From Theobroma cacao (lineage: Eukaryota > Streptophyta > Magnoliopsida > Malvales > Malvaceae): DNA of 64,000 bases. The DNA lies in contig NC_030855.1 in NCBI RefSeq assembly GCF_000208745.1, positions 849,531 to 913,530 on the forward strand. The letters are read 5' to 3'. The notes under the pieces are model-generated. The model did no database searches and was not told where the DNA came from. It saw only the letters and a program-made list of their open reading frames with translations. Of this stretch, positions 26,335 to 51,850 are shown piece by piece (position 1 is the stretch's first letter; each line of letters starts with the position of its first letter). The translations under genes and the position numbers were made by a program.

Positions 26335-26369
26335 CCTTTTTTTATATATAGTGAAAAAAGAATAACCTA

Positions 26370-26762
26370 TTACATCATTCTAAGCCAAGCAACTCCTAAA
26401 ACATCAGCTAGTAAAAGAGAAATAATGCTAGAAGGAGGAGACTCAAAAACACTAAGTACCAAAGGTAAATTATCATGATGAGTGGCCATCCAGTCGGCAC
26501 ATTGGTTCGCTTCACAAGGTATGTGAGATATTTTACAATCCCAATCTCGTAGGAGTAGTTCTTTTATATTCCTCAGCAACTTGACATTAGGATCTAAAAT
26601 ATTACTTTCCATCGACAACTTCTGTATAGCAAAGAGGGAGTCAGACTCCACTTGAACCTTCCTAAATCCCCTTCTCCAACACAAATTTAAACCTTGAAAT
26701 AATGCCCATAGCTCAGCATTTATCGAAAAAATTATACCAATTTTATGAATGAAACCTAGCAT
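26370..26762 (-). pseudogene. LINE RNase H domain
   Basis: The minus-strand frame has NAELWALFQGL, VQVESDSLFAIQ and HIPCEANQCADWMA, the core acidic and histidine motifs of plant LINE RNase H (RVT_3). It is separated from the reverse transcriptase frame by stops around 26957-27151, so the polyprotein is broken. The expected N-terminal DG motif lies beyond the frame start and is degraded. Confidence 0.85.
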
Positions 26763-27151
26763 CCATTCTCCCTTGTCATCACGAATAATTCCACCTGCCG
26801 CTGCTTCACCAGGTTGGCCTCTGGCACTCCATCAACATTTAGTTTAACAAATGTCTTGCTCGGTTTTTTCCAAGAAATCAATACTTCATGTTTCACCTTT
26901 TGTTGAGTTTTACTTAAGATATCAAAAGCCTCTTTGGTTTTCGTCCAGATTTGCTGCTACGGATTATGAGGCCATGTAAAAGAGCTATCAAAGATGAGAA
27001 GATTTCTCCAATACCAAAATAGCCATATGGTGTACACAAAGATAGAACTCCACGGCAACCCATCAAAAACAGTATTATCTTGAATATTCTTCAGTATCCA
27101 TTGCTGTAAGTTGAGACTGAAAAAATCAGAACAGAATAAATTTCCTCTCAA

Positions 27152-28528
27152 CTACAACCAGACATTTTTGGAAATATTGCAATCCCTTAAATCATGCAGT
27201 ATATCTTCATTAGAGCTGCCACAACGGATGTAACCAGGAGATGAACTCAAGTTCCTTTTAGCTAACCAAAAGGAAGTTGGTAAAGAATCATGAAGTACTC
27301 TCCATAGAAAAACACGAACCTTACTAGAGCTTTTGATTTGCCATACCTGTTTCCAAAAATTCATGCTAGATTTATTTTTCTCCATTTGAAGAACATAGGC
27401 TGACTTAACTGAGAAAACTCCATTGCTTGTTTCCAACCAAAAGCCAACGTCTTCTTCCTCACTAGTTGGATCTATAAGAACAGCAACTATCATGGAGACA
27501 ATTTCTGGAGGAAGCAAATGTGTAAGCATATCAAAATCCCAATTACCAGCCTCATTGCAAAAACTTGCAACAGATAATTCTGCTTCAAGAGCTGAGATCT
27601 CAGCACTAACATATTTTATTAAAGGTCCACAGCTCAACCAATTGTCAGTCCAGAATTTTGTTGAGTGCCCATTACATACATTTTTCCCCAAACCTCTCAC
27701 CAATACATCACGTCCTTTTAGAATGCTTCTCCAAACATAGGAGTTTGATGCCTTAGCCTTCACATTCAAAAGATCCTGACTTCTCAAATATTTCTTTTTA
27801 AGAATATCTATCCACAAGCTTTTCTTATCAGTCCATAAACTCCAACCAAGTTTGGCTAGAAGAGCAAGATTAAATTTTCTAGAGTCCCTTATTTGCAAAC
27901 CACCTTCAGCTTTATTTAAGCAAACTTTCTCCCAACTAACACTATGAATTTTTCTGGTTTCTCCAATGTGCCCCCAAATAAAGTTTCGATTCAATCTATC
28001 TATTTCTTGAATAACATTTTCAGGAATGAATATTGTTTGCATTAGATGAGCCGTCATAGAGCTTGTCATGGATTGCACTAAGGCAATTCTCCCAGCCATA
28101 GACAGATTTCTATTATTCCATCCTTCCAACTTTTGCTTCACCTTATTAAGCAGCTCAGAAAAAATTCCTTTAGAGAGACGACCATGGATTACTGGTGTTC
28201 CAAGATATTTTCCAAAACTTTTAATTAATGGAATCTTGGCAATTCTACTGAGGGCTCTTGCTTTTATATCACATAAATTTGAAGAAACCAACATGCGAGA
28301 TTTTACGAGACTCACCTTTTGTCCTAAAGCTTCACAGAAATTATCTAAGATTCTCATCATAGTTTTCACTTGATTCGTTGTAGCAGCTCCAAATAACATC
28401 AAGTCATCTGCAAAGCAAATATGAGACAAATTCGGTCCCTTTCTCGTTAGTTGGAAAGGCTTCCATTTACTAATCTTGATTGCATCATCTAGCAGGTGAG
28501 ATAATTTTTCTAGACACAATACAAACAA
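27152..28528 (-). pseudogene. LINE reverse transcriptase, C-terminal part
   Basis: 458 open residues on the minus strand. The frame contains the catalytic FADD box (CFADDLMLFG), the KSxxxxS and KYLGTPV region, the thumb segment (GWNNRNLSMAGRIALVQS), a long conserved connection domain (W..VCLNKAEGGLQIRDSRKFNLALLAK) and a degraded zf-RVT motif near the end (FWKQVWQI ... VFLWRVLHDSLPT). Fingers and endonuclease domains are absent through 5' truncation. The frame is unusually long for a dead element, so the insertion is fairly young. Confidence 0.9.
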
Positions 28529-28539
28529 ATAGGGTGATA

Positions 28540-28690
28540 GACTTATGAGGCACTTTGACCATTAATAAATTCCAATCAACCAAAAAGATGGTCGATATGA
28601 TCATGTGATATGTGTATGTGTAATTTAAATTCTTATTTTTCTTCAAAAAAATTCAACAATGCGGTATAAAAAATTCTATATACAGAGAGA
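28540..28690 (-). repeat. Right arm of inverted repeat, copy 2, outer part
   Basis: Resumes after the LINE and runs to AAAAATTCTATATACAG, the reverse complement of the sequence just after the exon 3 donor. Confidence 0.7.
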
Positions 28691-29625
28691 GAAAATAATT
28701 GTTGGCACCTTAGCATTTTGTGAAACCTTTTCTGAAACCTTTTCAGCACTTTGAAGCTTTGTCCATTAATTAATGAGCTTGTCTTGACGCTATACAGAAC
28801 CTTTTGTTTCTTTTTGACCTTCTGCAATCTTGAGTAGGGCTAGTTGTGTATATAGTAAAGCCCAGTCGTGCATACGCCACACAAAAGGCTCTAATCGTAT
28901 AGGTATTTCGAGGATAAATTCTGGGGTGAGTCATGCTGAATGTAAGACTCATAAAAGCATTCTTCCCTTCCATAGCTTATTGAAAGAAATTTATTTTTCA
29001 AAAAAAAAAAAGAGATTAGGAGCACTTCATAAATGAAGGGGTTTAGTTTGAGTTAATAGCTTCAAGTATGGAAGATGAAAAAGAAGATTCCGTTGCTTAT
29101 TTTTTTCCTTTGTTTTTGTTTTCTTGTGTCAGCATTATTTTATGTCGACATCCTTATCAATTCATCATGGTTAGTCATCAGTAGCTTCAATAATTATGCT
29201 TCCCAACAAAAAGTTTATAAGGAAAAATAAGAGATTCCAAAATTAAAACTTTTATATCCTTTGAAAAACCAATGTAAATAGACAAGGTTGATTTTTTTTT
29301 TATTTCAAAAAAGTGATTTGATTCCGAAATGCATGAAGTGCCTGATGCTTTTCTTGTTTTCTCTCCTTTTCTGTTTTCTTTTTGAGATACAAAATTGTGG
29401 TACTAGCATCTTGATAGCCACATTTGAAATAAAAGGGTAGTAATTAAAATAAGTATTTTATCTTTAATGATGAGTAAGTTTTCTTTGGCCTTTTCTTTTT
29501 CATATTCTCTCAATAATTTCCTTCTTTAAATATATAGAGAAAAAAAACAATGTTGATAGGACATAAAGCACATGCCATTTTCTTGTTTTTGGTACAAAGG
29601 GTTGAGGAAATCTTTGTTTAGGTTT

Positions 29626-29635
29626 TATATTTAAA
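29626..29635 (+). promoter_or_regulatory. TATA box in orphan promoter block A
   Basis: TATATTTAAA followed by CACTCTTTCTCATCAAGAGG, as before copy 3, but with no DC1 frame downstream. Confidence 0.45.
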
Positions 29636-30532
29636 CACTCTTTCTCATCAAGAGGCTAGCAATTGATCATCTCTCTCTTTTCATCTACCCAAATTTCTTT
29701 CTTTGTTTATATGAGAAAACAAGGCAGAGACTTTTCTGCCATGGGGATATCCTGTACTTGCTTTTGACAGAAGTTTAGTACCTCTTCAAGTCCTCAATCG
29801 TCTTGGCACTGCAAAGAGGGGGGTGTAGCTAGAAATTAACAACATAAAAATGCAAGCAAGACTGCTGATGCGAATGATTTAACAACATAAACAATTCTTT
29901 GAATGCCAAATACACTTTCATATATTTAAGCTTATTCTTCATAATGTGTAGGAGTACAGGGCATTTTATTCAATTATATTTTCATTAGATTGTAGGGAAA
30001 AGAAAGCTAGAGAATCTTTTCATGACAATGGCAAAGAGACAAAGGAGAGAAAACATTTTTAGACAATGATTCAAAATTTTTATTAATAAGTTAAAAAATT
30101 ACAGCAAACTAGCATAAAGTCAAAAAACCATTTTCTGCTCCTTTTATTCTCTCTTGGCCAGAAGCGATGTCCATTCTCAAACTAGTGAATTGGCAAATAA
30201 GTGGCTGCCTTTCTTGTATACTTTTGCGTTGAATGACCAAATACTTGTCCACTCTGTATGAATTTATGTTAATATTGAAGTTTTTTATATTTAAATGGAT
30301 TTGTATTTGATGTATTGATAATGTATAAAAAATACATTGTTAGTGCATTAAATATAAATCTTATTTAAATAGATTAGGAGTACTTAAGAATTGTAGGGGG
30401 TTTAATTTGAGTTAGTAACTTTTTGCATGAAAGAAGAAAAAGGAGATTTTGCTGCTATTTTTTTTTTGTATTTGTATTTGTTTTATTGTCTCGGCTTGAT
30501 TTTATGTCAAGAGCCTTATCAATTCAGCATGG

Positions 30533-30632
30533 TTTTTTTTTTTTTTTTTTTTATAATTGGAGGAAGAAGATTCGAACCCTACTCTTTAGGCAGGAGGATA
30601 ATGCACTAACCAATGAGTCAAATGCTCAAGTG
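30533..30632 (-). mobile_element. Short tRNA-derived SINE-like insertion
   Basis: About 100 bases flanked by TTATCAATTCAGCATGG (30516-30532) and TTATCAATTCATCATGG (30633-30649), a 17-base target duplication with one mismatch. On the minus strand it has an A-box-like TCATTGGTTAGTGC, a B-box-like GGTTCGAATC and a poly(A) tail (the T-run at 30533-30553). The paralogous block at 43805-43840 has the uninterrupted site. Confidence 0.82.
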
Positions 30633-31189
30633 TTATCAATTCATCATGGTTAGTCATCAATAGCTTCAATAACGATGCTTCCCAAAAAAGTTTAGAAGGG
30701 AAAATAGGGGATTCCAAACTTAAAACCTTGATGTCCTTGATGCTTTTCTTGTTTTTCTGTCCTTTTCTATTTATTGTTTTAGTTACAAAATTGTGGAAGT
30801 AGCATCTTCATAGCTACATTTTCAATAAAAAAAATACCAATTTAAAGAAGCATTTTATCTTATGAGTAAGTTTTCTTTGATCCTTTTCTTTCTCTTGAAA
30901 GACAAAGAGAATAGTACTCCATAAAAAAAGGTGTGTCTTAATTAAATTATTTGAAGGCAAGAAATTAAGATTAGCATCAGTATTCACTTTCAAATTCTCA
31001 TAATTATTTCCTTCTTTAAATAAAGAAAAAGTTAATGTTATTTTTATCACTCACTCGATCAATTAATTTACAATTATTGTTGTATTATCAAAATGAATCG
31101 TAATCATAACATACGCACGATGTGTTTTCATCGTGCAAGTAATTGTTGCATAACTAAAGCAAAAGAAAAGTAATTGCTATATAACATTG

Positions 31190-31512
31190 TTTACTTAGAA
31201 AGCAATATTTAACTAAAGAAAAAAATGGTAATTCCAAAGTTAAAATCTTTATTCTCTTAAAAACCAGTAAATAGAGCAAAGTTGATTCTCTATAAAGTGA
31301 TTTGACTCCAAAATGCTTTCCTTGATGCTTTTCTTCTTTTGTAAACAAAACACTTCTGCTTGCTAAAGTAAAGTGGGAATCAATTAAGTATGGTACAAAT
31401 TATAGATATGCATACATTTATGCTACCTGTGATACTTTGCTTTAGAGTTATTTTTTTCATGTCTTCTTTTTGTCTTTCTTAATACCAATCACTTTTACAT
31501 AGAATTTAATTT
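31190..31512 (+). repeat. DC1 5'-flank module joined to exon 3 end
   Basis: Matches the module upstream of the other DC1 genes (CATTTATGCTACCTGTGATAC) and runs straight into the last codons of a DC1 exon 3 at 31513, so a deletion removed everything between. Confidence 0.6.
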
Positions 31513-31970
31513 GAAAAATGTGATGGACAATTTGTTGCTCACATTGAGTGTTTGCTTCCTATAGTAAGTTCATCACCATGATCTTTTATGTAGAACTTTT
31601 TGACGGAAAATAAAAATCTAAATTACACATACCACATGATTCGTTAATTGGAATTTATTAATCTAAGCTCCTTCGATAAATTTTAATATAATAGGCTTTA
31701 TATTTTACATAAAGAGCTCTCCTTTTATCTTATTTTCTAGTAGAAGCCAAATTGAATTTTTGCATGTGCTTGGTAAAACTTATTATTTAAAGTTTTTTTT
31801 GTATAATTTGTGGACAAATTATACATAGACTATATATGCTAAACATTGCAATTTATTTTCTTGGAATAGTATAATAATTTTGAGGTTACATTTTTAGAAC
31901 CTAACGAAATCTATGCTTTCAAGAGGAAGAAGTTGAACCAGCACCAGAGGCTTCTTGCATTTTGAATTAA
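31513..31970 (+). pseudogene. Relic of a PP2-less DC1 gene
   Basis: 31513-31563 encodes the end of the twelfth DC1 domain (EKCDGQFVAHIECLLPI) and keeps the donor ATA|GTAAGT. The intron follows and then an acidic tail exon-equivalent at 31923-31970 (EEEVEPAPEASC ... stop), whose acceptor AG has become AA. The intron contains the outer left-arm sequence up to ATTAAT and then continues without a PP2 cassette. Exons 1, 2 and most of exon 3 are gone. Confidence 0.7.
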
Positions 31971-34240
31971 TCTATGTACTATACAGGCTGAGAGCTAAAG
32001 GAATCAAACAAGAGCAAAGAAAATCCAGCCTTCGAGGAATCAATAGAGGAGCAGCAGAGTGATGAAGAAAACTCTTCCTTTATTCATTTTCTAAATAAGA
32101 GCTATTGATGCCTTTGTTTGGCATCAGAAGAGTAATTTAGTTAATTACTGTTTCTACATTGAAAAAGGTCATGCAAGAAGTCTCTTTCTTTCTTTCATTC
32201 TTGACTTTGTTTGCTTGCTTGTGGTGGTTATTCTGATGCATAGATTGCTACAAGGGATACTTCGTGACCCTAAAGCTCTTATTTGGGTTTCTTATTTGTA
32301 CTTTTAAAAAAAAAAAATTGAGAAAAGGGAGATTCGAACCGTGCTTAATCATGCACCAACTAATAGTATGATTTCTTCATAAATTTAAAGTAATCTAAAA
32401 TTTAAATTAATTACAATTCAATTCAATGATCATCCAAACAGATAATGTCATTAGTATCATCAAGCAACCATAAAAACTAAAAATTTTGTAATTCAAATGT
32501 ACCACGAAATAATAGAATATGGATTGAATCGTGGATACCGAATGATAGAAAGGTGATGTAGTATTGGTGAAGCTATAACATTTGGTTTTATCCCACGTCT
32601 CAACTCATAATTTTCATATTTTCTATGACTTACTCTTTTATTACCTTATTTGTTAATTATTTTTTTATTATTTTAAATACGAGGATCAACATTTTCCATA
32701 TATTGTTTCAAAGAGCTGACAACTAACTAAATTGTTGGTTGATTGTGGGAATGAGAGATAAATTCCACACTACTTAGTTGGATAGAACAGCAATGGAGAA
32801 AATATTGAAAATTAATGTTGCCCTTGCTTGGCTTAGATGAAGCATTATTTTTTTTTTTTGCCTCGAACATATACTTTTTCAATTAATTGAAACTTCTATT
32901 TAAAAGGAAATGAAAAAAGGGATTCCAAATTTAAAACCAACAAGTAGAGTGAGGTTGATTCTCTATAATGTGATTTGATTCTAAAATGCTTGAGGCCCTT
33001 GATGTTTTTATTCTTTTGTAAACAAAACACCCTCACTGGCTAAACTAAATTGGGAATCAATTTAGTATGACACAATTTATAAAAATGAATACATTTATGC
33101 CACCAATGATACTTTGCTTCAGAGTTACCTCTATACTGTCTTCTTTTTGACTTTCCTAATATAGATCACTTTTACATAGAATTTAATTTTATTTGTACAG
33201 TTCGATTGTTGTGCTGCTGGGGTACAGTGATAGAGGGGTCAATTTGATGTAAGTTAATCAACTTGGATTTACAGCATAAAACTCAACCAAATTCCGACAA
33301 AGATTTGTTCCCAATCCATACACATATGACGAAATTGAAGCAATTTTATCTAAAGGAGATGAGCTTAATTTCATTCCAATAAGTTACTTGAGTGATTTAC
33401 TTTGAAGAAGTAAATTTGCATGTCAATAGTGAAAATATTGATCAATATAATTACTTTTGGCTGAAAAAAAAAGAAAATATAGAATTACCACTAGGGCTTA
33501 CTAAATTTGATAAATAAATCATCTTAATAAGCAATAAATATGTATGCGAGGGCTAATTATCTGAGTTAACATTCCGTGAAATATACATCAAAATTGATGT
33601 TAATATTCTAGGTTGTGATTAAGTCAAATATTCAAGTTTTTAACATTTGAATAGATTAGGAGTATTTCATAAACGAGGGGGTTTAGTTTGAGGTAATAGC
33701 TTCAAGTATGGAAGAAGAAAAACAAGATTATGCTGCTTATATTTTTCGTTATTTTAATATTTTCTTGTCTCAAGTTGATTTTATGTCAACACTTATCAAT
33801 TCATCAAGGTTAGTCATCAATAGCTTCAATAATTATGATTCCCAACAAAAAGTTTAAAAGGGAAAATAAGGATTCGAAACTTAAAACCTTTATCCTCTTA
33901 AAACCAATAAATAGAGTGATTTGATAATGTGATTTGATTCGGAAATGCATAAGGAGATTAATGCTTTTCTTATTTTTTTTTCATATTTACTGTTTTAAAT
34001 ACAAAATTGTGGTAGTAGTCTTGATATCCACATTTAGAATATCAAAGTAGCAATTAAAAGAAGCATTTTATCTTTAATGATGAGTAAGCTTTCTTCGATC
34101 CTTTTCTCTTTTTTGAAAGACAAAGCGAATAATATTCTTTCCTTGCTTAAATAGAGGCAAAAAAAAAAAAAACAATGTTGACAGAGCATGAAGCATATGC
34201 CATATTCTTCTATTTGGTTCAAAGGCTTGAGGGAATCTTT
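31971..34240. other. Upstream region of copy 3, repeat-rich
   Basis: No gene is seen. 31980-32080 still shows the acidic repeat in decayed form (EEQQSDEE). 32800-33330 is another copy of the 5'-flank module, and 33620-34240 matches the proximal flank of copy 2 and the orphan blocks. A possible SINE remnant with GATTCGAACCGTGC lies near 32330. Confidence 0.5.
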
Positions 34241-34334: not shown

Positions 34335-35700
34335 ATGGATATCAAACCCGTCCTTCTTCATGAACATCACTTGCTCTTTGATGAATACAATGAATCAAAG
34401 GCACTTTGTGAACTATGCAATAAGAAAATTTCTGATTTATCCTATTCTTGTGAAAGATGTAACTTTTCGTTACATAATTCCTGCGTTCAACGACAACTAC
34501 CTCCTCAGATAAGTGCACATCCTTTCCATTCCCAACACAATCTTACTCTCTCATGCTCAAAACACATAGATTACATATGTGCTAAATGTTTCAATCTTTC
34601 TCGAGGCCATAGATACTATTGCAAAGATTGTGATTTTAGCCTTGAGTATTCATGTGCTTTTCCAATCAATGATGAGAAAAATAGACTCAATGATGAGACA
34701 TCCAAAAAAATTGGTCTTCTCAGCAATTCGTTGACCTTATTTAACTATAGGAGAGTGAAAAAGTACGAGTATATATGTAGTTGGTGTGAGATGCATCTGT
34801 CTGGAATGTCTTATGGTTGTCTTGAAAATGGTGTTTATATCTGGTTCCACGAGTCTTGCCTAATCAACATCCCTAGCATAAACCCATTTCATCCATCACA
34901 CCCTCTTTCATTACTCAACATTCGCTTTGATAATGGGCTTTGCAATGCTTGCAACCTACCAATATGGGAGTTCGGAAAAGCCTATTGTTGTAGAAAATGC
35001 GAATTCCACCTTCATGTTCACTGTGCTAAACTACAACCCAGTCTCAAGGTTGAGTTACATGAGCATGATCTTACTTTTTTTCGAATAAAAGCTACGGCTA
35101 CCCACCTGTGCAAGATATGTGGTTTTAATTTTGATTCTATAGGGAAGGAAAGTCCTTTTTATCGTTGTGTTCAGTGTAATTTCAATTACCATTTCTATTG
35201 TCTTAAAATACCGTATTCTACTTCACATAAGTATCATAGGCATGATCTCAAGCTTATGGATTCATTTGTAGAAGATGATTTTAAGGAATATTATTGTGAT
35301 ATATGTGAAGAAGAAAGAAAACCAAAGCATTGTGGTTACTGTTGCAGGAAATGCAAATTTGTTGCTCATATTGAATGTGCACTCAATAAGGTAAGGAGAC
35401 ATTTACTCTCTTTGTAAAGAAATTTATTAAATGTTTTTTTCATTTGATAAACTATTAATTATTTGATCATAGGTGACATATAATATGCCCCTTAGAAAAA
35501 TTTTGATGCTAATATTTTCACTTCCCCAGGTTGTAGATATGAAACTTGACCAAAGTTCGACCTCTAATTTGTTGGATAGCGAAGCTTCAACATCAAAGGT
35601 GATGGAATTGGGTCTTCTATATAAATATTATTGTGATATTTTCATTGTTAATAATTTTTTTTTGAGGTTTACATCCCTTTTAGGTCTTCTATAATTCCTT

Positions 35701-35758
<58 letters not shown>

Positions 35759-35759
35759 N

Positions 35760-35800
<41 letters not shown>

Positions 35801-38800
35801 AGATTTTTTTATTAATAAACACCATTTATGTTTTGAATAAAATTCAATAAAAAAATAAAATCTGTAAATAATATACGTAAGAAACCTTTACTTATATAGT
35901 AGTATTAATTCAAAATTAATTTGGAGGCAGCTTTAGTAAAAATATTGAATGTTGAGTAAAATAAAACCACATACGTGCATCATGTTCATTTATAAACATA
36001 TATATTTGATTACATTTAATTATTGTTTCCATATTTTAGTTTTATCTTAAATTTTCATTTTTTTTACTTGTTAAACAAAAATAAAGAGTAAATTTTACTA
36101 TTAATCTTGACTTATTTTGTAACGTTTCGTTTTCATTCACCCATATTGAATTTGTTCCAAATCCATATGTCTATTAACATGCCAATAAAATATAGATGGA
36201 ATTTGTCATGTACGTGTCACATATAAGTCCAATTATGTGAATGTAGTCATATGAACATACTTAGATGGCAAATCTCTTCCATATTTTAATAATGTATTAA
36301 TAGATAGATGAATTTAAAATAAATTTAAAAAGGCGAAAATGAAAAAAATCAAGTTTGTTTAGTAACAAATGAAAATAAAATATTATGACAATGTTACAAA
36401 CTAAGGATGCACTTTACATAAAAAATAGAGAAAGATTAATAACTTTCTTCACTTGCTCTGGTTGTGCAGGTGCAAATTGGACGTTTTGATCACCCACATG
36501 CCCTGAGCTATAATAACGCTATTGAACAGAATGAAAATCTTCTTTGCAATGCTTGTCGTCAGGGAATTTTTTATCAACACTATGCTTGCAAAGATTGTAA
36601 ATACTACTTACATGACATGTGCACTACATTGTCATATGAGGTGTCACACCCTCTTCATCGCCAGCATCCTCTCAAACTCTTCACGGATATAGTTGAATTT
36701 ACATGTCATGGATGTAGGGACCATTCTGGTGGGTTTGCTTACATGTGCCTTCCATGTGATTTCCAACTTGACGTGAAATGTGCTACCACTCCAATTGCAC
36801 CTAAAAATGAGGGCCAAAGGCTGAAAGAGATGGAGAAAGTTTCTCAGTTGTGCCCTTTCAATCAAAATCATAAGCTAGACTTCTTCAACCATAAACCCAA
36901 TCTCAAAGATTTGGCTTTGGAATGCAATGCTTGCAAGCTACCAATCTTGGGTCTAGGTTATGCATGTCGTTATTGTTTCAATATCAAAATTCATGAATCT
37001 TGTCTTGCATTTATGCGGGAGATGGAACACGCCTTTCATCCATTACACCTGCTTCATCCACAAATCGGGGATTGGGAAAATTGTTCTGCCTGTAGATTTA
37101 AAATCATTGAAAGTATCGGTTATAGTTGTCGGCAGTGTGATTTCCACCTTCATTTTCATTGTGCTAATTCCCTGAAGCTAGCCTTAAAAATTAAGTCTCA
37201 CATGCATAATCTTTATTATTTTGGACCAGATTATGTGAAATCCTACCAATTATGTAACAAATGCAAAAATTGCATTGGTGAGGAACCTTTTTATTACTGC
37301 GTGGAGTGCAATATGAATTTGCACTTAATATGTGTTCCCATACCATGTTCAATTAAATCCAAATGTCACATGCATCATTTGACTCTTAAAAATCATTTCG
37401 TGGAAGATGATTCTGGAGGATACTATTGCGACATTTGTGAAGAACAAAGGAACGCAAAATATCATTGTTATTGTTGTGAAGAGTGTGCTGGACAATTTGT
37501 TGCTCACATCGAGTGCGTGCTTCTTACAGTAAGTTTATCACTATCATTTTCTTTGTAGAATTTTTCTATACCACATTATTGAATTTTTTGAAGGAAACTA
37601 AGAATCTAAATTACATATACACATCACATGATTACATCCACCACCACTTTGATTGATTGGACTTTATTAATGGTCAAAGTACCTCATAGGTCCCTATATT
37701 ATAGATTTTTTGTTAATTTAGCCCCTTTACCCAAAACTGGTTAATTTATTATCTATACTCTGAGATTTTATGCAATTGCGTCCTTTTGCTTAACTCCATC
37801 CAAATTAACCATTAGTGGTGCAGACGTGGCATTGACTTGTCAAATAAAAGAAAAGAAATTGGCCACATGGCAATTTTTTTCTTTTTCTTTTTCTTTTCTC
37901 TCATTTGTTCAAAATTATATTATTTTAACCTACTATTTAAAGCACATGTAGTTTTTATTTTCATTTTCCTTCTGTCCTTCTTTCTTGCTTTTTTCTCTTT
38001 CTACCTTGCTCTACTCTCCCAAAATTCTATCCCCCAAATCCAAATTCTGGGTGCTGGTTACTAGTAGTAGGAAAATCTAATAAAAAATATCAAAAGATTC
38101 ATTTTTTTGCCCTCTTTCCCTTAATTGAGATAGTTTTTTCAAAGTCTATCTCGATTTTTCTAAATTTAAAATGATAAACTTGTAAAAAAGAAGCTTGTTT
38201 CTTTCTACCGCTATGTCCTCGACTTGATGCTAATGATCAAGTGGCTGTGTTTTTCATGTTGTAGGATTTTGAATTTGCAGATGAAAATTTCCATGAATTT
38301 TCCAATTTGAAAAATGCTAACTCATTTGTTGAGAGGTTCTCTATGGATAAGTTGCTTTCCTATTCCCATGCCGAAGTTTACTTGAACCAAAATAGAAAGG
38401 TAGTTAAGTCCTATATAAGTTCATTTTAAAGATCTCATCTTTTATGTGAAAATGAATATTATTTTATGAATAGTTGAGTGGAGAAAAGTTTCACGATTTT
38501 GTGGGTGCAATTGTTGTTGCAGAAGTACTGGGTGGATAAAAAGTTAAACAAATACTGTTTCATGTTGTTTGCAAGAGATTTCTCTATCCTTTGGGCAGAA
38601 GACCACCGTTACTGGCGCTGGTTATACCAAAGAGAAACAAACAGGTTAGCGTAGATTTATTATCCATTCAAGATCCTTACTTCATAGTTCTAGCTCGAGA
38701 GCTTTCCTAATCCATAAACGTTTGATTTTGCAGTGATGTGTTGATTGATGTTGCCGAACTTTTAGATGTGTGTTGGCTAGAAATGCATGTGATGTTCAAT

Positions 38801-39103
38801 GTAAAAAAGCTCTCACCGAAAACATTGTATGGACTTGTGTTCGTGCTTATGTTGACAAAAGAAGCACGTGGATGGGAACATCCAATGAACTTCGGATTCA
38901 TTCTTCCAAATGGGTACAAGGTTGAACGCAAGGAACCTTTGAAGTCCAAGCCAAGAGGAGTATGGATAGAAATCCCTATTGGAGAATTTACAACTTCATC
39001 CGCAATTGTTGGAGAAGTAGATATTTATTGTCATCAATATTATACAAGTAATTGGAAGAGAGGACTTATTGTTAAAGGAGTTACTATTCTGCCAAAGAAT
39101 TAA
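34335..39103 (+). CDS. DC1-PP2 fusion protein, copy 3 (intact, about 936 aa)
   Basis: Six exons: 34335-35390 (residues 1-352), 35530-35598 (353-375), 36470-37528 (376-728), 38265-38399 (729-773), 38523-38644 and 38734-39103 (774-936). All introns are GT-AG; the first four junctions are phase 0 and the last splits a Ser codon (AG|T). No stop or frameshift was found. Residues 1-352 hold six DC1 domains and 376-728 six more, each with paired CxxC and a closing H-x-C; 774-936 is a complete PP2 domain with W-x3-D-x-R-Y-W-x-W (WAEDHRYWRW), DVAELLDVCWLE, GVWIEIPIGEF and LIVKGVTILPKN. The start is MDIKP, matching copy 2; an in-frame ATG 17 codons earlier lies in the leader. No signal peptide or membrane segment: a cytosolic or nuclear protein is likely. 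DC1 repeats bind zinc and possibly lipid or protein; PP2 domains bind glycans. A defence role is inferred from family and context. Confidence 0.88.
35700..35796. repeat. (AT)n microsatellite containing an unresolved base
   Basis: Nearly 100 bases of alternating AT in intron 2 of copy 3, with an N at 35759. Its true length is uncertain. Copies 1 and 2 have no such run at this place. Confidence 0.95.
37548..38100 (+). repeat. Left arm of PP2-flanking inverted repeat, copy 3
   Basis: Begins 20 bases after the exon 3 donor and is the imperfect reverse complement of 39300-39902 over its whole length. Shared landmarks in order are TGTAGAATT, ATTATTGAATTTTTT, TCTAAATTACA, TTTATTAATGGTCAAAGTAC, CTCATAGGTC, CCATCCAAATTAACCAT and CTACTATTTAAAG. 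Confidence 0.85.
38265..39103 (+). CDS. PP2 module of copy 3 (exons 4-6)
   Basis: A 45-codon linker exon (DFEFADENFHEF ... YLNQNRK) followed by the two PP2-domain exons. The KYWVDKK and FMLFARD start, the WAEDHRYWRW motif and the C-terminal SNWKRGLIVKGVTILPKN match PP2-A lectins across the full length. PP2 domains in plants are known joined to TIR, F-box or AIG1-type partners; joining to DC1 repeats is not one I recall. The module is bounded by inverted repeat arms on both sides. Confidence 0.88.
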
Positions 39104-39299
39104 GTAATGAATTAGTATTTTCTCACAATAAATCTTAAAGAACCATAGTTTTTTATTTGTTCATAATCCTACAAATTCCAAAATGACATGAACCTGAAAG
39201 GAACCAACTCACCCAATTATCACTTCTATGCTCAAACCAGTTTTTTGCTCTTTAGTATACTATATAAGTTCCATGCTAAATGCAACAAACAAGCCCATT

Positions 39300-39902
39300 G
39301 ATATTTTTGGTATGTTTTATAAGATTTTTTGACCACCAGTGACTAGTGGCTGGCTATCAAAATCTGGGTTTGGGGATCAGAATCTAGGATAGAAGGATTG
39401 GATTGAGAGCGAGAGAGAGAAGAGAGCTAAAGAGAGAAGGCAAAAAGGAAAAATGAAACATGAAAAAAAGAAAACTAAATGTCCTTTAAATAGTAGGCTT
39501 AAAATGACTAGTTTTGGACAAAAGAGAGAAAAAAGAAAAAGAAAAGCCATGTGACCTATTTCTTTTTTTAGTCTAACATGTCAATGTTAGCATTTTCTGA
39601 CATGTCAGTGCGACGTAAGTACCACTGATGGTTAATTTGGATGGAGTTAGATAGAAAGACTCAATGGTACAAAATTTGGGTGTACAAGGACTAAATTAAC
39701 TAGTTTTGAATAGATGAATTAAATTGACCGAAAAATCTTTAATATAGAGACCTATGAGGTACTTTGACCATTAATAAATTCCAATCAAGCAAAGAGGTGA
39801 TAGATATGATCATGCGATATGTATGTGTAATTTAGATTTTTATTTTCTTTCAAAAAAATTCAATAATATGGTATAAAAGAATTCTACAACGAGAGAAAAT
39901 AA
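39300..39902 (-). repeat. Right arm of PP2-flanking inverted repeat, copy 3
   Basis: Reverse complement of 37548-38100, running from the loop (TGACCACCAGTGACTAGTGG) to ATTCTACAACGAGAG. It starts about 200 bases after the PP2 stop, so it probably falls in or just past the 3' UTR. Confidence 0.85.
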
Positions 39903-39956
39903 TTGTTGACGCCTTAGCATTTTTTGAAACCTTTTTAGCACATTGAAGCTTTGTCC

Positions 39957-42455: not shown

Positions 42456-44446
42456 TGTCCATTAGTTAATGAGCTTGTTTCAGGCATGTTTTTATAGTAA
42501 TACATGTCTTTACGCTGTATAGAACCTTTTGTTTCTTTTTGACCTCATGCAATCTTGAGCATGGCTGGTTGTGTATATAGTGGAGCATAGTTATGTATAT
42601 AGGGAGATGTATGCCTAAGCTGCAGGGATGGTTTTTGTTCATCTGCTTTTGTGTAAATTGATTTTGCTTAAGGTATAAAGGTATAGCATTTCAATAAAAA
42701 GAAAAAAAAACAAACAAAATTGTGGTATTAGCATCTTGATAGCCACATTTGGAATAAAAAGTAGCATTTAAAAGAAGCATTTTATCTTTAATGATGAGTA
42801 AATTTCTTTGGCCTTTTTCTTTTCATATTCTGCCAATAATTTCTTTCTTTAAATAGAGAAAAAAATAATGTTGACAGGACATGAAGCCCATGCCATTTTC
42901 TTGTTTTTGGTACAAAGGCTTGGAGGAATCTTTGTTTAGGTTTTATATTTAAACGCCCTCTCTCATCAAGGGCTAGTAGTTAATCATTTCTCTCTCTCTC
43001 TCTTCATCTACCTAAATTTATTTCTTTTTTTGTTTGAGAAAACAAGGTAGAGACTGTTCTGCTATGGGGATATAATATGCTTGTTTTTAACAGAAGTTCA
43101 AAACCTTCTCAAGTCCTCAACTGTCTTGCTATTGCAAAGAGGGGGTTGTAGCTAGAAATTATCAACATAAAAATGCTAGCAAGACTACTGATGTGGATGA
43201 TTTAGCTTGGTTTGGGTTATACAAGGCACAACAATTCTTTAAATGTCAAATACACTTTCCTATATTTAAGCTATTCTTCATAATGTGTAGGATTGCAGGG
43301 CATTTTATTCAACTTTATTTTGGTTAGATTGTAGGGAAAAGAAAGCTAAATAATTTTTTCATGACAATGGCAAAGAGATAAAGGAGAAAAACATTTTTAG
43401 ACTGATTCAAAATTTAATTTCATTAATAAGTTAAAAAGTTACAGCAAACTGTCAATGTACAAAAAAGAAATTTTTTCTGCTCCTTTTATTCTCTCTTGGC
43501 CAATACGTTCTCAAACTAGTGAATTAGCAAATAAGTGGCTACTTTTCTTGTATGCCTTTGAGTTGAATGACCATGTACTTGTTCACTCTGTATATTTCAG
43601 TAAATTTATGTAAATATTCAAGTTTTTAATATTTAAATTCTATACACTATCAATGCATCAAATATAAATCCTATTTAAATAGATTAGGAGTACTTAAGAA
43701 ATGCAAGGGTTTAATTTGAGATATATAATAGCTTTCTGTATGAAAGAAGAAAAAGAAAATTTTGCTGCTTTTTTTAATTTTTTTGGTTTTATTGTCTCAA
43801 CTTGATTTTATGTCAATAGCCTTGAGAATTCGTCATGGTTAGTCTTCAATAATGATGCCTCCCAACAAACAGTTTGAAAGGGAAAATAGGGGATTCCAAA
43901 CTTAAAACCTTGATTTCTTGTTTCTCAGTCCTTTTCTATTTATTGTTTTAGTTACAAAATTGTGGAAGTAGCATCTTGATAGCCATATTTTTCAACAAAA
44001 ATGTACCAATTTAAAGAAGCATTTTATCTTTAATGATAAGTAAGTTTTCTTTGGCCCTTTTCTTTTTCTTAAAAGACAAAAGAGAATAGTATTCTATAAA
44101 AGAGGTTACGTCTTAATTAAATTTTTTGAAGACAAGAAATTAAGATTAGCATCAGTATTCATTCCCAAATTCTCACAATTATTTTTTTTTAAATAAAAAA
44201 AATATTGTTGTTTTTGTCACTCACGCGATCAATTAATATGAAATTGTCATTGTATTAGCAAAACAGATTGAAATCTTAATATACTTGTGACATGTTTTCA
44301 TCGTGCAAGTAATTGTTGTATAACGAAAGCACAAGGAAAGTAATTGCTATATAACATTATTTAACTTAAAGGGTAATATTTAATTAAAGAAAAAAAAGTA
44401 ATTCCAAACTTAAAACCTTTATCCTTTTAAGAACTGATAAATAGAA
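42456..44446 (+). repeat. Orphan promoter block, copy B
   Basis: Aligns with 28740-31270, but lacks the SINE (clean site at 43805-43840). It carries the TATA box at 42944-42953 and leader CATCAAGGGCTAG with no DC1 frame after it. It breaks off at about 44447 (GATAAATAGAATTC), where other sequence begins. Confidence 0.7.
42944..42953 (+). promoter_or_regulatory. TATA box in orphan promoter block B
   Basis: TATATTTAAA in the same context as 29626 and 34251; there is no DC1 gene downstream. Confidence 0.45.
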
Positions 44447-45651: not shown

Positions 45652-48600
45652 TCATGCCATTACCTTTTCCCTGATGTAATGACAGTCCATCTCTATATGT
45701 TTTGTTCTTTCATGAAGTACTGGGTTTTTGCTGATGTATATTGCTGATTGGCTGTCCGTGTACAGATTCACTACTTCAGGATGATTTATGTGAAAGTCTA
45801 CCATCAAGGATTTTAACCACATGATTTCACAACAGGCTGTTGCCATAAATTGATACTCGGCCTCAGCTGAACTTCTGGCCACAACAGATTGCTTATTCGA
45901 TTTCCAACTTACTAGTGAATCACCAACAAAGATGCAATACCCTGTGACTGACCTTCTGGTATATGGACAACCTGCCCAATCACTAATTAAGTATCTAGAT
46001 ATCTTTAAATTATTCTTTGACTTCATTAGAATTCCCTGACCTGGTGCCTTTTTTATGTACTTTAGGACTCTATGAGCTGCTGCAAGGTGTTTGAGTCCTG
46101 GTTTGTCCATAAATTGTGAAAGCACCTGTACAGCATAAGTAATATCAAGTCTGCCAAATGTCAGGTATAACAACTTTCCAATTAACTGTCTGTAGCTAGT
46201 AGCATATGTAAGCTTATCTTCACCATTGCTCTTGACTAATTTGTGGTTGTAGTCAATTGGTGTACTTGCAGGCTTTGTTCCAAGTAACCCGTGTTCTTCC
46301 AAGAGATCTAGAGCATACTTCCTTTGGCATATTGATATGCCTCGATGATCTGGCTATCTCAGTCCTAAGAAGTATTTGACTTTCCCAAGGTCTTTAAGCT
46401 TGAACTCTGAACTCAAGTAACCTTTGACATCATTTTCTGCTTGAATGGAAGAACTGGCAATTAATATGTCATCGACATATTGTAAAGCCTGACTTTATAA
46501 ATACTTGTCATGACATACATGTGATGGATAACATGTTTGCATGCTAGAAGAGTCCCGAAAAAATTTACAAAAGTAGGTATAGTTCCTAGAGGTACAACAA
46601 AGTTGATTTAAGCCTCGAACTAGATCAAATAGGAATTTTAAGTTGAAATTAAGAGCTTCACAGTCCAAGGATGACTCAAAAAGGTAATTTGGAGTTTGAG
46701 GATCAATTTGGAGTCAAACTGAAATTTTCACTATCTAAGGGCAAAATGGTCATTTGCCACCTGGGGACAAAATGAAAATTTTTAGAAAAGATTTTTTGGC
46801 CCCATTTGACTTATTGGAGTAGAATTTGAGGTTGAGAAATGAAAAAAATTGTAATCTTGGTATTTTTCAGAACATAGGGGTAAAATGGTAATTTTGTCAC
46901 CCTAAGGGCAAAACTGTAATTTTTCACCACCAGGACATTTGTCCAGCACATGGTCTTCCCTTATCCTAATTTTGACCTTTGACTAATCATGTGGTAGAGA
47001 TAAAAGGTTTAAAATTTTAAAAATTTTAAAAATGGACCAATAAGAAAATGACAAGTGTCAAGCTTATAATATTTTATTATTTTCTATAAAAATCAGCCTA
47101 TAAACCCCTCATTTCTCTCCAAATATTCGGCCACACTAAGAACAAAGGGAAAAAGGAAGAGAACAAACCCTAGGTGGGGAATTTGAAGAGAAAAAGTGTG
47201 GAAAATCAAGAAAAATAAGTGAAAAAGGTAAGATTTTTCAATTTAAACTTGAAATCTATTTTCCTCAAGCATTTCTCCTTATTTTTCATGCTTAAATTAC
47301 ATGCTTTCATGATGAATTCATGGCTGGTCAAAATGGATATGGAGAGAGAAAGATGTTGGAATTATTTGATTTTAAGTTATGTTAGTGTTTTTAGTTAGTT
47401 TAGCATATTTAGAAGCAAAACAACAAGAAAAGAATCCATTTTTCCTATCAATCTTCATTGGTCGAATCTTCCTTGATATGTTTGGGAGATGGATTATTAT
47501 TATTTCAAGAGAAATGGCTTAGAAAATGATGAATAATGGTGAGAAAATTAAGTAGGAAAAATCACGATGTTAGTGCATTGTAATGGCAGAATTTTTTCCA
47601 TGAAGAAATGGGAAGGTTTTGATGCTGAAATTGGTGTTATTTGAATAATGTTTGGTGAATTGAGGTATTAGAAAAGAAATGGAGTAATTTGGGATTAAAT
47701 TGGACGCGTTAGTAATTTAATCGGGTGATAAGACGAATTAGGCCAATACCGAGTTTAGATAGTTACCAGTGCATTTTTACATTCCATATCATGCATTAGT
47801 AGTCTAAATTAGTTTAATTTCAATTTAGTACCAATGTGGTGAATTTCTCGATTTTGTACTATGTCAAGGTGGTGAGTCCTCCAATAAAGGCAAGGGAATT
47901 ACACCCGAGGACCAGTAGTTTGAGTATTTCGAGAATCTGCACTCTAGACATAATGAGTAAACTTACTGTCTTATTATTATCTAGGGTGGTTTTTAGATGA
48001 TTTCATGAATTCTATGGAAAAATGGATTTTAAAAGGTAAATTTTCATGTTTTATGAATACATGTGTTTCAATGAAATTAATTTATAAATTGTTTTGAAAT
48101 TAATTATGATTTTGAAAAATAGAGTACATGGAGACTACTATTTGTTGTAATGTGATTGTTTACATTGATTGGTTTATGATAAATTGAGCATGATTGGCTG
48201 GTTGGCAATTGTATTGAAATACGGATTGTTTGGTTGCCTTGAAAGGCTATGAATTACAATAATTGCCATATCATGTTATTGAATTTTATTGATTGGTGGG
48301 ATAATTATTAACTTACTGCAGTAGGCGGGTTCCGTGGACCAGCCTATGAGAGGGGCACGGTAACCCTGTTTATATGTGCTCACCTCTATTGTAGAGGCGC
48401 GTAAGGTAGCTCCTGAGATGATATTTGAGATCACTTCACGTCAAACCACCACGTGATGGTGAACTCAGCCAACGCCAAGGAACGGCTATAATATCCAACG
48501 AAAAATGTGTTTTATGTGAAATATGAATTTTTAACAGCCTTGGTGGTCTCTGTAGGATGCCTCGGCCAAGGTGTCCCCGAGGATGGATTTATGGCATAAG

Positions 48601-51264
48601 CCTAGTTTTTATAAGATTCATAAGCCTCTTTACGTATTTTGAATGAAATGTGTTCTAATGATGTGATCTAGTTTGTGATAATTTACTTTATTGTCTCCAT
48701 GTACTCAACTTTAGATGTTTATGATGATTTTGTTTACTCACTAGGATTTTATAATCTCACCACCCTCTTTTCCACCCATTTCAGGCTTAGTATAGGCTGT
48801 AGATAGCTGATAGCGTTGAAGGCTTCAGTTGACTTGACTACTTCAAAAATCGTAGGTTCATAGCCTTCTTTCAGTTTTCTCATTTGGGGACTCACATGTC
48901 ACTGTAAATTAAATTTCATACTTTAGTTATCTGTACTACTGTATGTAAGAATTTATTTTGTTTTTACTCTGAAAAAAAAAATTAATTACGCAATGTTCTA
49001 AAAATATTATTTTAAGTTGGACATGAGAAGCTGATTTTAAAGCCTTGCGGGGTTCCGATTGACATTTCAAGTAATGAGTGTCAATCGGAACATCGTGGCG
49101 GTTGTCACGGGCTCAAAGGGAGTTCCGGGTCGTGACACATATACTAAAACTGTTATGAAATCTCCATTATGTGTCTTCATGGTGAAAAGTGAATAGTCTG
49201 AATTCGACTGTTTAAAACCATACTTCAGAATTGATGCAATGAGTTTTGAATTCCAAGCTCTTAAAGCTTGCTTGAGTCCATAAAGTGACATGTGTAGCTT
49301 GCAAAGTAACCTTGAACCAGTAAGATACTCCCCCTTGATTGTGTACCCTTGTGGTAATTCCATGTAAACCTCTTCTGTTAATTCACCATTCAAGAATGCA
49401 TTATTTATGTCCAGTTGTTACAAATGCTAATTCTGTGCTGCTGCTAAGGCAAAAAACATTCTCGTTATTGTTTGTCTGGCTACAAGACTAAATGTTTCCT
49501 GGTAGTCAAACCCTTCAATTTGGTTATACCCTTTTGCAACCAATCGTGCCTTATATCTTTCCATTTTGCCATCAGCATTTAGTTTCACCTTGTACACCCA
49601 TTTGTACCCTACTGCATGACAATTTAAAGACAATGATACAATGCTCCATGTTCCATTATCTTTCAATGCTTTCAATTCAATATCCTTGGCTTCTTTCTAG
49701 TGAGAATGAGCTACTGCTTGCTGGTAAGAGTTTGGTTCAAATATAGTTGATAAAAAGATAGTAAATGATCTATGTGCTGGTGACAATTGGTGACAGGAAA
49801 GATATTTGGTAATTAGATGTGAAGTGATGGTATTGGTTTTATGTGGTGAGTCAAGTTGATATGCCTCTAGTTACTTAGGAAGGTGTTTTGGCCTAGTGCT
49901 CTTTCTAATTGGCATCTGTTGTTCAATGACAAGGTCTGGTTCAGTTTCATCAGTGCTACTAGTTGCAGGATCACTAGCAGTGTCAGAGGTAAGCTAATTC
50001 AAATCATTTGTGTTTGATGTTTTAGGTTCATGGCTTGATGGTACATGTTCAGGTGAGCTTATCTCAGCTGATTGTAGGTCTTGGTGATTGAAATTCGTTG
50101 GATTTGAGTCAAAATGGTCAAGAAATCTGTCAAGTCCATCAAGTGTTTGATGAAATGTTTGATGTGTTGAATTATGCTGTAAAGTATGAAAAGGAAAAAT
50201 CTCTTCATGAAAAATCACATTTCTTGAAATGAGGACCTTTTGTGCATTGATATCATAAACTCTATACCCCTTTATGTTGCTTAGATAACCTAGAAATATG
50301 CATCTACTAGCTCTCTCATCCAATTTCTTTTTATTTTGAGTTAGGGTAGAGACGTAACACAAGCATCCAAACACTCTAACATGTGTATAGGATGGTGGTT
50401 TTTTTATGAAGCAATTCATATGGGGATTTGTTTTTGAGGACTATGGTAGGTATTCTATTTATGACATGCACTGCTGTTAGGACTGCATCCCCCCAGAACT
50501 TGATTGGAAGCTTTGAATGGAACATTAAGGCTCTAGCCACCATTAGAATATGCTGATGTTTTCTTTCTGCTGTTCCATTCTGCTAATGATCCTCTACACA
50601 AGATAACTGATGTACTATTCTTGTTTTGCAAAAAAATCAAAAAGTTTGAATTCTTGACCTTGGTCAGTTCTTATACACTTAATTGTAAGATCATATTGTC
50701 TTAAAACAAAGGCATTGAATGAATGTATGATGCTTGAAACTTCTGTTTTGTTTTTCATAAGGAAAATCCATGTAAAGTGAGAATAACCATCCACTATTGT
50801 AAGGAAATATTTCTTATTTTGCAATGTGGGGGCTCATAAAGTCCCCAAATGTCAATACGAATCAGTTCAAAAGCTCTTTTGGTGCTCTGAATATGAATTA
50901 CAAAAGGTAACTTCCTTTGCTTAGCCAAAGGGCAGATTTCATAAAATAGCTCATTTGAACATTTAACTGTTGGAAAATGTTGATTTATTACATTGATTCT
51001 TTCAATTTGAGCATGTCCAAGTCTGAAATGCCATAAATCAAAAGTCCTATGCACTGTATTACAACTTTTATCTGATGAAACAAAGGAAAACTTGAAAACT
51101 TGAAAGCATTCTATTATTTCAATCATGCATACAAGCCTAGCCATGCACATGGTCATTTTCAAGACAAGAAACCAAATTAATGTCCCAAGCTTTGAAAGTA
51201 GGAATCCACCTGACTTAAAATGTTGAGGTCGTAAAACTTTGATAGAAAGATTTGAATTTTTCAT
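45652..51264 (-). pseudogene. Copia pol polyprotein (broken)
   Basis: Pieces on the minus strand: 51264-50794 GAG-pre-integrase (WHFRLGHAQIERINV, ICPLAKQRKLPF); 50824-50615 integrase core (FLTIVDGYSHFTWIF, IRTDQGQEF); 50419-49994 integrase C-terminal part ([25 protein letters not shown]); 49675-49427 and 49393-49143 reverse transcriptase ([42 protein letters not shown], then TVLVY); 46478-45652 the rest of reverse transcriptase from VDDILIASSS and RNase H (SAEAEYQFMA, YTDSQSAIYIS, RTKHIEMDCHYIRE). Stops and frameshifts separate these, including a stop after KYFLGLR, so it is inactive even without the insertion. Such proteins copy element RNA and insert the DNA. Confidence 0.88.
46481..49137 (+). 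mobile_element. Solo LTR inserted in Copia reverse transcriptase
   Basis: Begins TGTAAAGCCTGACTTTATAA and ends CGGGTCGTGACA (TG...CA ends), flanked by perfect CATAT duplications at 46476-46480 and 49138-49142. The insertion falls inside the codons for the YVDD catalytic box of the host Copia. Related to 52830-55780 in the opposite orientation. No coding domain was found in its 2657 bases. The part at 48300-48600 has landmarks shared with that relative (CACGTGATGG, GGCCAAGGTGTCCCCGAGG). Confidence 0.9.
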
Positions 51265-51289
51265 TGTGAAGTTGACATTAGATTTTTTA

Positions 51290-51850
51290 GATCTAACTTG
51301 TTGTGAGATAGGTCGAGCTTAGATTAAGTTTGAGTTTTTAAATCGAACCTGTTGTAGGTTGAGCCTAGATGAAGTCTAGGAATTTTAATTTTTTAATCAA
51401 AGCTGTTTTGAGATAGGTCAAGGCTAGATTAAGTCTGAAATTTTCAATTTTTTATATTGAACCTGTTCTAAGATAGGTCGAGCCTAGATCAAGTCTAGGA
51501 ATTTCAATCTTTTAATCGAACTTGTTTTGAGATAGGTCGAGCCTAGATTAAGTCTAGGAATTGCAATTTTTATATCGAATCTGTTTTAAGATAGGTCGAG
51601 CCTAGATCAAATCTAGGCATGTCAATTTTTTAAATCGAATCTGTTTTAAGATAGGTCGAGCCTAGATCAAGTCTAGGAATTTTAATTTTTAAATTGAACT
51701 TGTCTTGAGATAAGTCGTACCTAAATCAAGCTTAGAAATTTCATTTTTTTTTAACTTAGTTTAGGGATTTCATTTTCAAACTTGTTTCAAAGTAGATCAA
51801 GCCTAGATTGAATTGCTTAAAACAAACTTGCCTCAAGATAAGCTGATACA
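51290..51850. repeat. Tandem repeat array, about 60-base unit
   Basis: Around nine diverged copies of a unit with core GATAGGTCGAGCCTAGATCA followed by AGTCTAGGAATT and a T-rich stretch. It sits just before the polypurine tract of a Gypsy element, a place where many plant Gypsy elements carry tandem repeats in the spacer between pol and the 3' LTR. Confidence 0.85.

Follow-up and report, generated by a model that had tools for sequence, protein, structure and literature searches.

Plant proteins that carry a PP2 (Nictaba-type) lectin domain at the C-terminus behind another N-terminal module are known, and the F-box/Nictaba, TIR/Nictaba and AIG1/Nictaba proteins described in the available parts of PMC5485960 and PMC12355970 are without DC1 modules. 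DC1-type modules and a plant lectin domain occur together in three cucumber proteins, but the lectin domain is jacalin instead of PP2, and the proteins are tabulated as C1-like(1-3)/DC1 in the accessible part of PMC5485960. Moreover, the addition of 3' exons to a host gene by a Pack-TYPE element is a known event (PMC8903248), and Pack-MULEs (Mutator-like elements carrying host gene fragments) are familiar from plants, although protein-coding ones are called rare in the available text of PMC8277862. Here, we describe a gene of Theobroma cacao, hereafter C3, at positions 34335-39103 of a 64,000-nucleotide stretch (the window, C6:849531-913530, where C6 is the cacao contig NC_030855.1), in which two blocks of DC1 modules are joined in one frame to a full PP2 domain. 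The reading that we favour, at a probability of about 0.8, is that of a chimera made by a transposon through Pack-MULE-type domain capture and then amplified in tandem, with a putative glycan-directed product. As in Pack-MULE and Pack-TYPE elements, a host gene fragment lies between inverted repeats and adds 3' exons; unlike in those elements, a complete domain makes up the cargo, the fusion has been amplified and its PP2 part shows purifying selection.

The initial annotation of this gene, made from the sequence alone, had named TIR, F-box and AIG1 as partners of PP2, in agreement with PMC5485960, and had put forward DC1-PP2 as an architecture not known to be described. We found no description of such a protein in the literature searched, which mostly excluded subscription papers and does not prove absence. 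The predicted protein is, however, already present in databases, uncharacterised, and DC1 with another lectin domain, jacalin, has been reported from cucumber. No literature was found on four gene names, and a literature search on DC1 function yielded nothing usable. C1_2 and PP2 are named as partner domains in Marchantia in a study of MCA channels (PMC8049495), and cacao is listed for C1_2 and for PP2 in a survey of nucleotide-binding leucine-rich repeat (NLR) proteins (PMC4759884); the accessible parts of both sources do not show the two domains in one protein. The architecture table of a 38-genome lectin survey that includes cacao concerns other species, according to the portion of its text available (PMC6362431), and PP2 domains are reported with or without F-box only in the available part of a study of four cotton species (PMC10439568). 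A term search found neither DC1 nor PP2 in the main text of a cacao NLR study (PMC12405883). The DC1-PP2 architecture, here only in Theobroma and Herrania, thus appears undescribed, and the underlying principle is known.

Structure of the DC1-PP2 gene

The C3 gene lies on the forward strand and comprises six exons. Exon 1 (34335-35390) is an open frame with C1_2 matches and a GT donor and encodes the first block of DC1 modules, exon 2 (35530-35598) encodes a 23-residue linker, and exon 3 (36470-37528) encodes the second DC1 block and ends at the donor of the fusion junction. Exon 4 (38265-38399) is again a linker, while the frame and Pfam matches place the start of the PP2 domain in exon 5 (38523-38644) and the remainder, with the stop codon, in exon 6 (38734-39103). 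Both linkers fall in regions of low model confidence, with a predicted local distance difference test score (pLDDT) below 50 at residues 353-377 and 731-778. All five introns are GT-AG, the exons are entered in phases 0, 0, 0, 0, 0 and 2, and the spliced frame has 936 codons and a stop, without internal stops; the six-exon model of the initial annotation therefore holds in its coordinates, introns and frame. The hand-spliced protein is identical to P0001, a database entry named 'PREDICTED: uncharacterized protein LOC108662397 [Theobroma cacao]'.

The predicted union of twelve DC1 modules with a complete PP2 domain was borne out by a Pfam scan, which gave C1_2 in 12 stretches (E 4.2e-80) and PF14299 PP2 at residues 783-934, covering profile positions 1-148 of 148 (E 2.8e-34). 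C1_2 was found in 11 stretches each in the related proteins P0002 and P0004. Among the C3 modules, 11 have the paired CxxC and 10 a looser full zinc-ligand Cys/His pattern; by eye, the usual His is replaced by Glu in the module at residues 82-107 and by Asp in that at 454-479. The scan of C3 gave no match to F-box, TIR or AIG1, and none to NB-ARC or leucine-rich repeat (LRR) domains at E values up to 1.

A DC1-PP2 family in cacao and Herrania

At least eight DC1-PP2 copies in which every exon is recognisable lie within ~209 kb of C6 (~753.9-962.9 kb). Three of these are in the window (C1, C2 and C3) and five elsewhere on C6 (L009, L010, L011, L012 and L014). Since C1, C2 and the five further copies have the same blocks as C3, and in C1 and C2 in the same order, the architecture of C3 is more than chance. 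Six of the eight copies, i.e. all but C1 and C2, have an open frame that ends in a stop codon without an internal stop; in one of them, L009, the donor that follows exon 1 is GC. C1 (7558-12212, forward strand) is a pseudogene with a stop at 10350-10352, another in exon 5 and a frame break near the end. C2 (20903-25715, forward strand) is broken by a stop at 21056-21058, and it lacks GT and AG at the sites that align with the donor and acceptor of intron 2. Near 938 kb of C6 lies L051, a ninth but incomplete PP2 piece. The genome searches scored the best candidates only (49 of 233 for the DC1-PP2 copies, 40 of 84 for the element end described below and 40 of 82 for a longer element query), so that copy numbers are lower bounds.

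DC1-only members accompany these copies. L013, which matches P0011 (LOC18595136 isoform X3), shares with the fused genes the two DC1 blocks, exons 1-3 and the start of intron 3; unlike them, it has neither element nor PP2 and ends in a 15-residue tail exon. On the forward strand of the window, C4 (57713-59305) is a truncated, broken DC1-only copy, a remnant at 31512-32071 retains the end of exon 3, and 1911-2291 is what is left of the acidic tail region of a DC1-only copy. Stretches at 28780-31275 and 42505-44445 are likewise duplicated and carry promoter-like sequence of the DC1 genes but none of their exons, which marks repeated loss of genes from the array.

The proteome search proposed in the initial annotation returned the expected combination: both domains were present in six of the nine proteins found among 284 candidates of a protein database, all six from T. 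cacao or Herrania umbratica and two of them from Herrania. The same six proteins are the only ones with PP2 among the 77 DC1 relatives listed at E ≤1e-20. Both protein searches required shared 5-residue words and bounded lengths, so that distant DC1-PP2 proteins may have escaped. At the level of sequence, the DC1-PP2 order is real and recurs in two genera.

The PP2 exons lie in a Mutator-like element

In the copies examined, the PP2 piece is flanked by long inverted repeats. In C3 the element spans 37672-39769 (forward strand), with a left terminal inverted repeat at 37672-38095 and a right one, on the reverse strand, at 39305-39769. The inner part of each arm (left: 37672-38095) is a dispersed repeat; of the 41 matches listed, 26 are spread over contigs C1 to C9 away from the cluster. 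With the longer query, which includes intron sequence, 20 of the 21 dispersed matches listed start within 10 nt of 37672, and the flanks of the dispersed copies differ from copy to copy. A start at 37540, 11 nt into intron 3, was also considered and dropped, given that 37540-37671 is common to the DC1-only copies and the dispersed copies start at 37672.

Both ends were recognisable in three of 16 dispersed loci fetched. The flanking 9-mers agree at 9/9 positions in L041 (chance 0.003) and at 8/9 in L039 (0.029), judged among equally AT-rich pairs; in L046 they agree at 7/9 (0.20), which is no evidence for a duplication. Long inverted repeats and duplications of 9-10 bp are marks that, by the part of PMC8277862 available, place an element nearer to MULEs. 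Three family members, their type unproved, had no frame longer than 104 amino acids and none for a transposase, and no search for an autonomous copy was made; the element is therefore labelled Mutator-like and no more. In C2, the right arm is split by a long interspersed nuclear element (LINE) at 26335-28538, with a minus-strand reverse transcriptase (frame 27152-28561) and ~15 bp of the arm present on both sides.

The landing site is visible within the same gene family. In L013, C4 and the remnant at 31512-32071, intron 3 is uninterrupted, with one TTATTAAT at the site and a short tail exon beyond, which is acidic in C4 and the remnant. L014, a fused copy, has TTTATTACT next to the element on the left and, one base in, TTTATTAAT on the right (8/9, chance 0.011), and the 58 nt that follow match, at 81-86%, the uninterrupted intron of the three DC1-only copies. 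By these borders, L014 is an insertion with a target duplication, beside its empty site in the DC1-only copies. In C3, the ancestral part of intron 3 (37529-37671, forward strand) precedes the element, and an inverted copy of this left intron segment (39770-39906, reverse strand) has replaced the original right flank. Such a right flank is present in all copies but L014, and we read it as the probable outcome of a later exchange between repeats.

Divergence between the arms within a copy is 0.28-0.36 (Kimura two-parameter distance, K2P) in the three window copies, compared with 0.18-0.28 (left) and 0.21-0.33 (right) between these copies, which suggests that the insertion is older than the duplications. 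A search for the tail exon of the DC1-only copies found none between C3 and C4 in the window, nor in L014; DC1-only relatives in other Malvaceae have short, varied and often acidic tails. The intron segment had no match at three DC1 loci fetched from contigs C5 and C10, which says little because protein identity there is ~50%.

A stand-alone PP2 gene as donor

The nearest non-fused relatives of the PP2 part are the 256-residue PP2-A1-like proteins P0084 (cacao) and P0083 (Herrania). Two 182-residue models, P0081 and P0082, group with the fusion tails in the tree (100/99), and this group joins P0083/P0084 at 100/99. Three label changes are needed for the fusion grouping because P0081 and P0082 sit inside it; these two models are ends of DC1-PP2 loci and match those of L012 and L011 at 99.5 and 98.4%. 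The stand-alone cacao gene, L015, lies at ~C6:21,454,830-21,455,686, 20.6 Mb distant. It shares the PP2 domain and both intron positions with the fusion; unlike the fusion, its protein P0084 has its own N-terminal region of ~60 residues, starting MGAS, and no DC1.

Positions 38307-39153 of C3 (forward strand) align to L015 without a break at 83% identity, including both introns and ~50 nt past the stop, and identity across the six intact copies is 83.1-85.6% in alignments of 838-863 columns. As the match is unbroken across both introns, what was captured was genomic DNA, from a point within a coding exon onwards. The opening 14 codons of exon 4 (38265-38306, forward strand), just downstream of the fusion acceptor, have no match to L015.

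Selection on the fused exons

Pairwise ratios of nonsynonymous to synonymous substitution (dN/dS) for PP2 exons 5-6 were 0.82 (0.48-1.51) for C3-C1, 0.57 (0.32-1.15) for C3-C2 and 0.51 (0.27-0.91) for C1-C2. Because the values of C3 with the broken copies are not clearly below 1, we used the six intact copies, with 100 resamplings. The mean dN/dS was 0.54 (0.38-0.83) for PP2 exons 5-6, and 0.44 (0.33-0.57) and 0.30 (0.22-0.39) for the two DC1 blocks. The 14 junction codons alone gave 0.55 (0.11-2.29), too few codons for a conclusion. As judged from these substitutions, the PP2 exons are under purifying selection, and the PP2 part is thus used, which by itself is no proof of use as a fusion.

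Neighbouring sequences and other domain combinations

The initial annotation had placed C3 next to an NLR gene. An NLR fragment with winged-helix and LRR domains is indeed in the window, at 3-1529 and open at the window start, but it is separate from C3 and ends ~6 kb before C1 and ~33 kb before C3. Neither the tandem family, pseudogenes included, nor the derivation of the PP2 exons from a transposon figured in that annotation. Further along, an inverted repeat pair of ~2.7-2.9 kb (46481-49137 and 52830-55780, 79-89% alike) surrounds retroelement-like frames, and self-matches at 51282-51753 show by eye a tandem repeat whose units measure roughly 60 bp.

Six Hibiscus/Gossypium protein clusters (P0041, P0051, P0053, P0057, P0061 and P0068) are annotated with DC1 and armadillo/importin-alpha type repeats, e.g., P0041 with C1_2 in 9 stretches, Arm in 5 and an importin-beta-binding domain; they are either a further fusion with DC1 or a gene-model join that recurs. 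P0007 of Zizania latifolia (627 residues) combines PF12165 with PP2 in precomputed annotation and may be a gene-model join.

Discussion

Several observations weigh against a fusion made by a transposon, and other explanations draw on them. The DC1 gene could end at or soon after exon 3 and be followed by an element-moved PP2 gene starting at the exon-4 Met, the joined model being a prediction artefact. This would suit the separate annotation that splits L012 and L011, whose models P0081 and P0082 start at that Met; the exon-3 frame of C3, which continues past the donor for 10 codons to a stop; and the one of four tested Pack-TYPE insertions that gave no merged transcript (PMC8903248). However, the Met is Thr in L009, where the frame is open, and Val in P0084, inside the chain. 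The donor GT of exon 3 and the acceptor AG of exon 4 are kept in all eight copies, as are the open 14 junction codons; the one exon-4 length change seen at the DNA level, a loss of 15 nt in C2, preserves the frame, and database models of two species join DC1 and PP2. Two adjacent genes are thus unlikely in our view, and we infer exon 3-exon 4 splicing from the kept splice sites and open frames. If, instead, ordinary segmental duplication or unequal recombination had brought the PP2 exons, and the surrounding repeats were unrelated later insertions, then the missing target duplication in C3 and the rearranged right flank in seven of eight copies would fit; yet L014 holds the whole element within a 9-bp duplication, with original intron on both sides, and the repeats and dispersed copies have the same outer ends, which makes this origin very improbable.

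The use of the PP2 domain is a different matter. The fusion might be translated with a PP2 part that no longer binds sugar, the family being sustained by its DC1 function. dN/dS is higher in the PP2 exons than in either DC1 block, although it stays below 1 even at its upper limit (0.83). Structure comparison with the predicted model finds the PP2 beta-sandwich fold at residues 773-936 of C3, but PP2-fold proteins with another activity exist, such as hinokiresinol synthase. Four of the nine named Nictaba pocket positions are changed in C3, and in P0002 (L010) the equivalent of Trp151 is missing as well; the five kept in C3 include Trp15 and Trp41, both tryptophans that a review names as contacts, and two of the changed positions, Ala40 and Asp148, bond via the main chain. 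We regard a degenerate passenger as possible but doubtful.

For the transposon-made chimera, the course of events would be as follows. As the match to L015 shows, a Mutator-like element with terminal inverted repeats of ~0.4 kb gained the 3' portion of a stand-alone PP2-A1-like lectin gene on the same contig, as a genomic copy with its introns. The element then landed in intron 3 of a two-block DC1 gene and duplicated ~9 bp of target, as L014 and the empty sites show. Splicing from the donor of DC1 exon 3 to an acceptor that lies within the element would presumably have added 14 new codons, entered the PP2 exons in frame and replaced the original short tail exon. The fusion was amplified in tandem, with six of the eight recognisable cacao copies still open and purifying selection on the PP2 part. 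Least certain is the product: it may be a chimerolectin in which PP2 binds GlcNAc (N-acetylglucosamine)-type glycans and directs the DC1 array, a putative zinc-stabilised binding scaffold, to glycoprotein targets, with a role most likely in stress or defence. On balance, we lean towards the view that a Pack-MULE delivered a whole, functional, in-frame lectin domain into an intron of a zinc-finger gene that was undergoing tandem duplication, and that a new glycan-sensing DC1-PP2 family arose from it in the cacao lineage.

Given that the donor, cargo, empty site, insertion footprint, spread and selection are all visible together in one case, the gain of a domain by means of a transposon can be traced here step by step. 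Such genes are unnamed or split in current annotations, and cacao and its sister genus would gain a family of putative glycan-binding, defence-type proteins.

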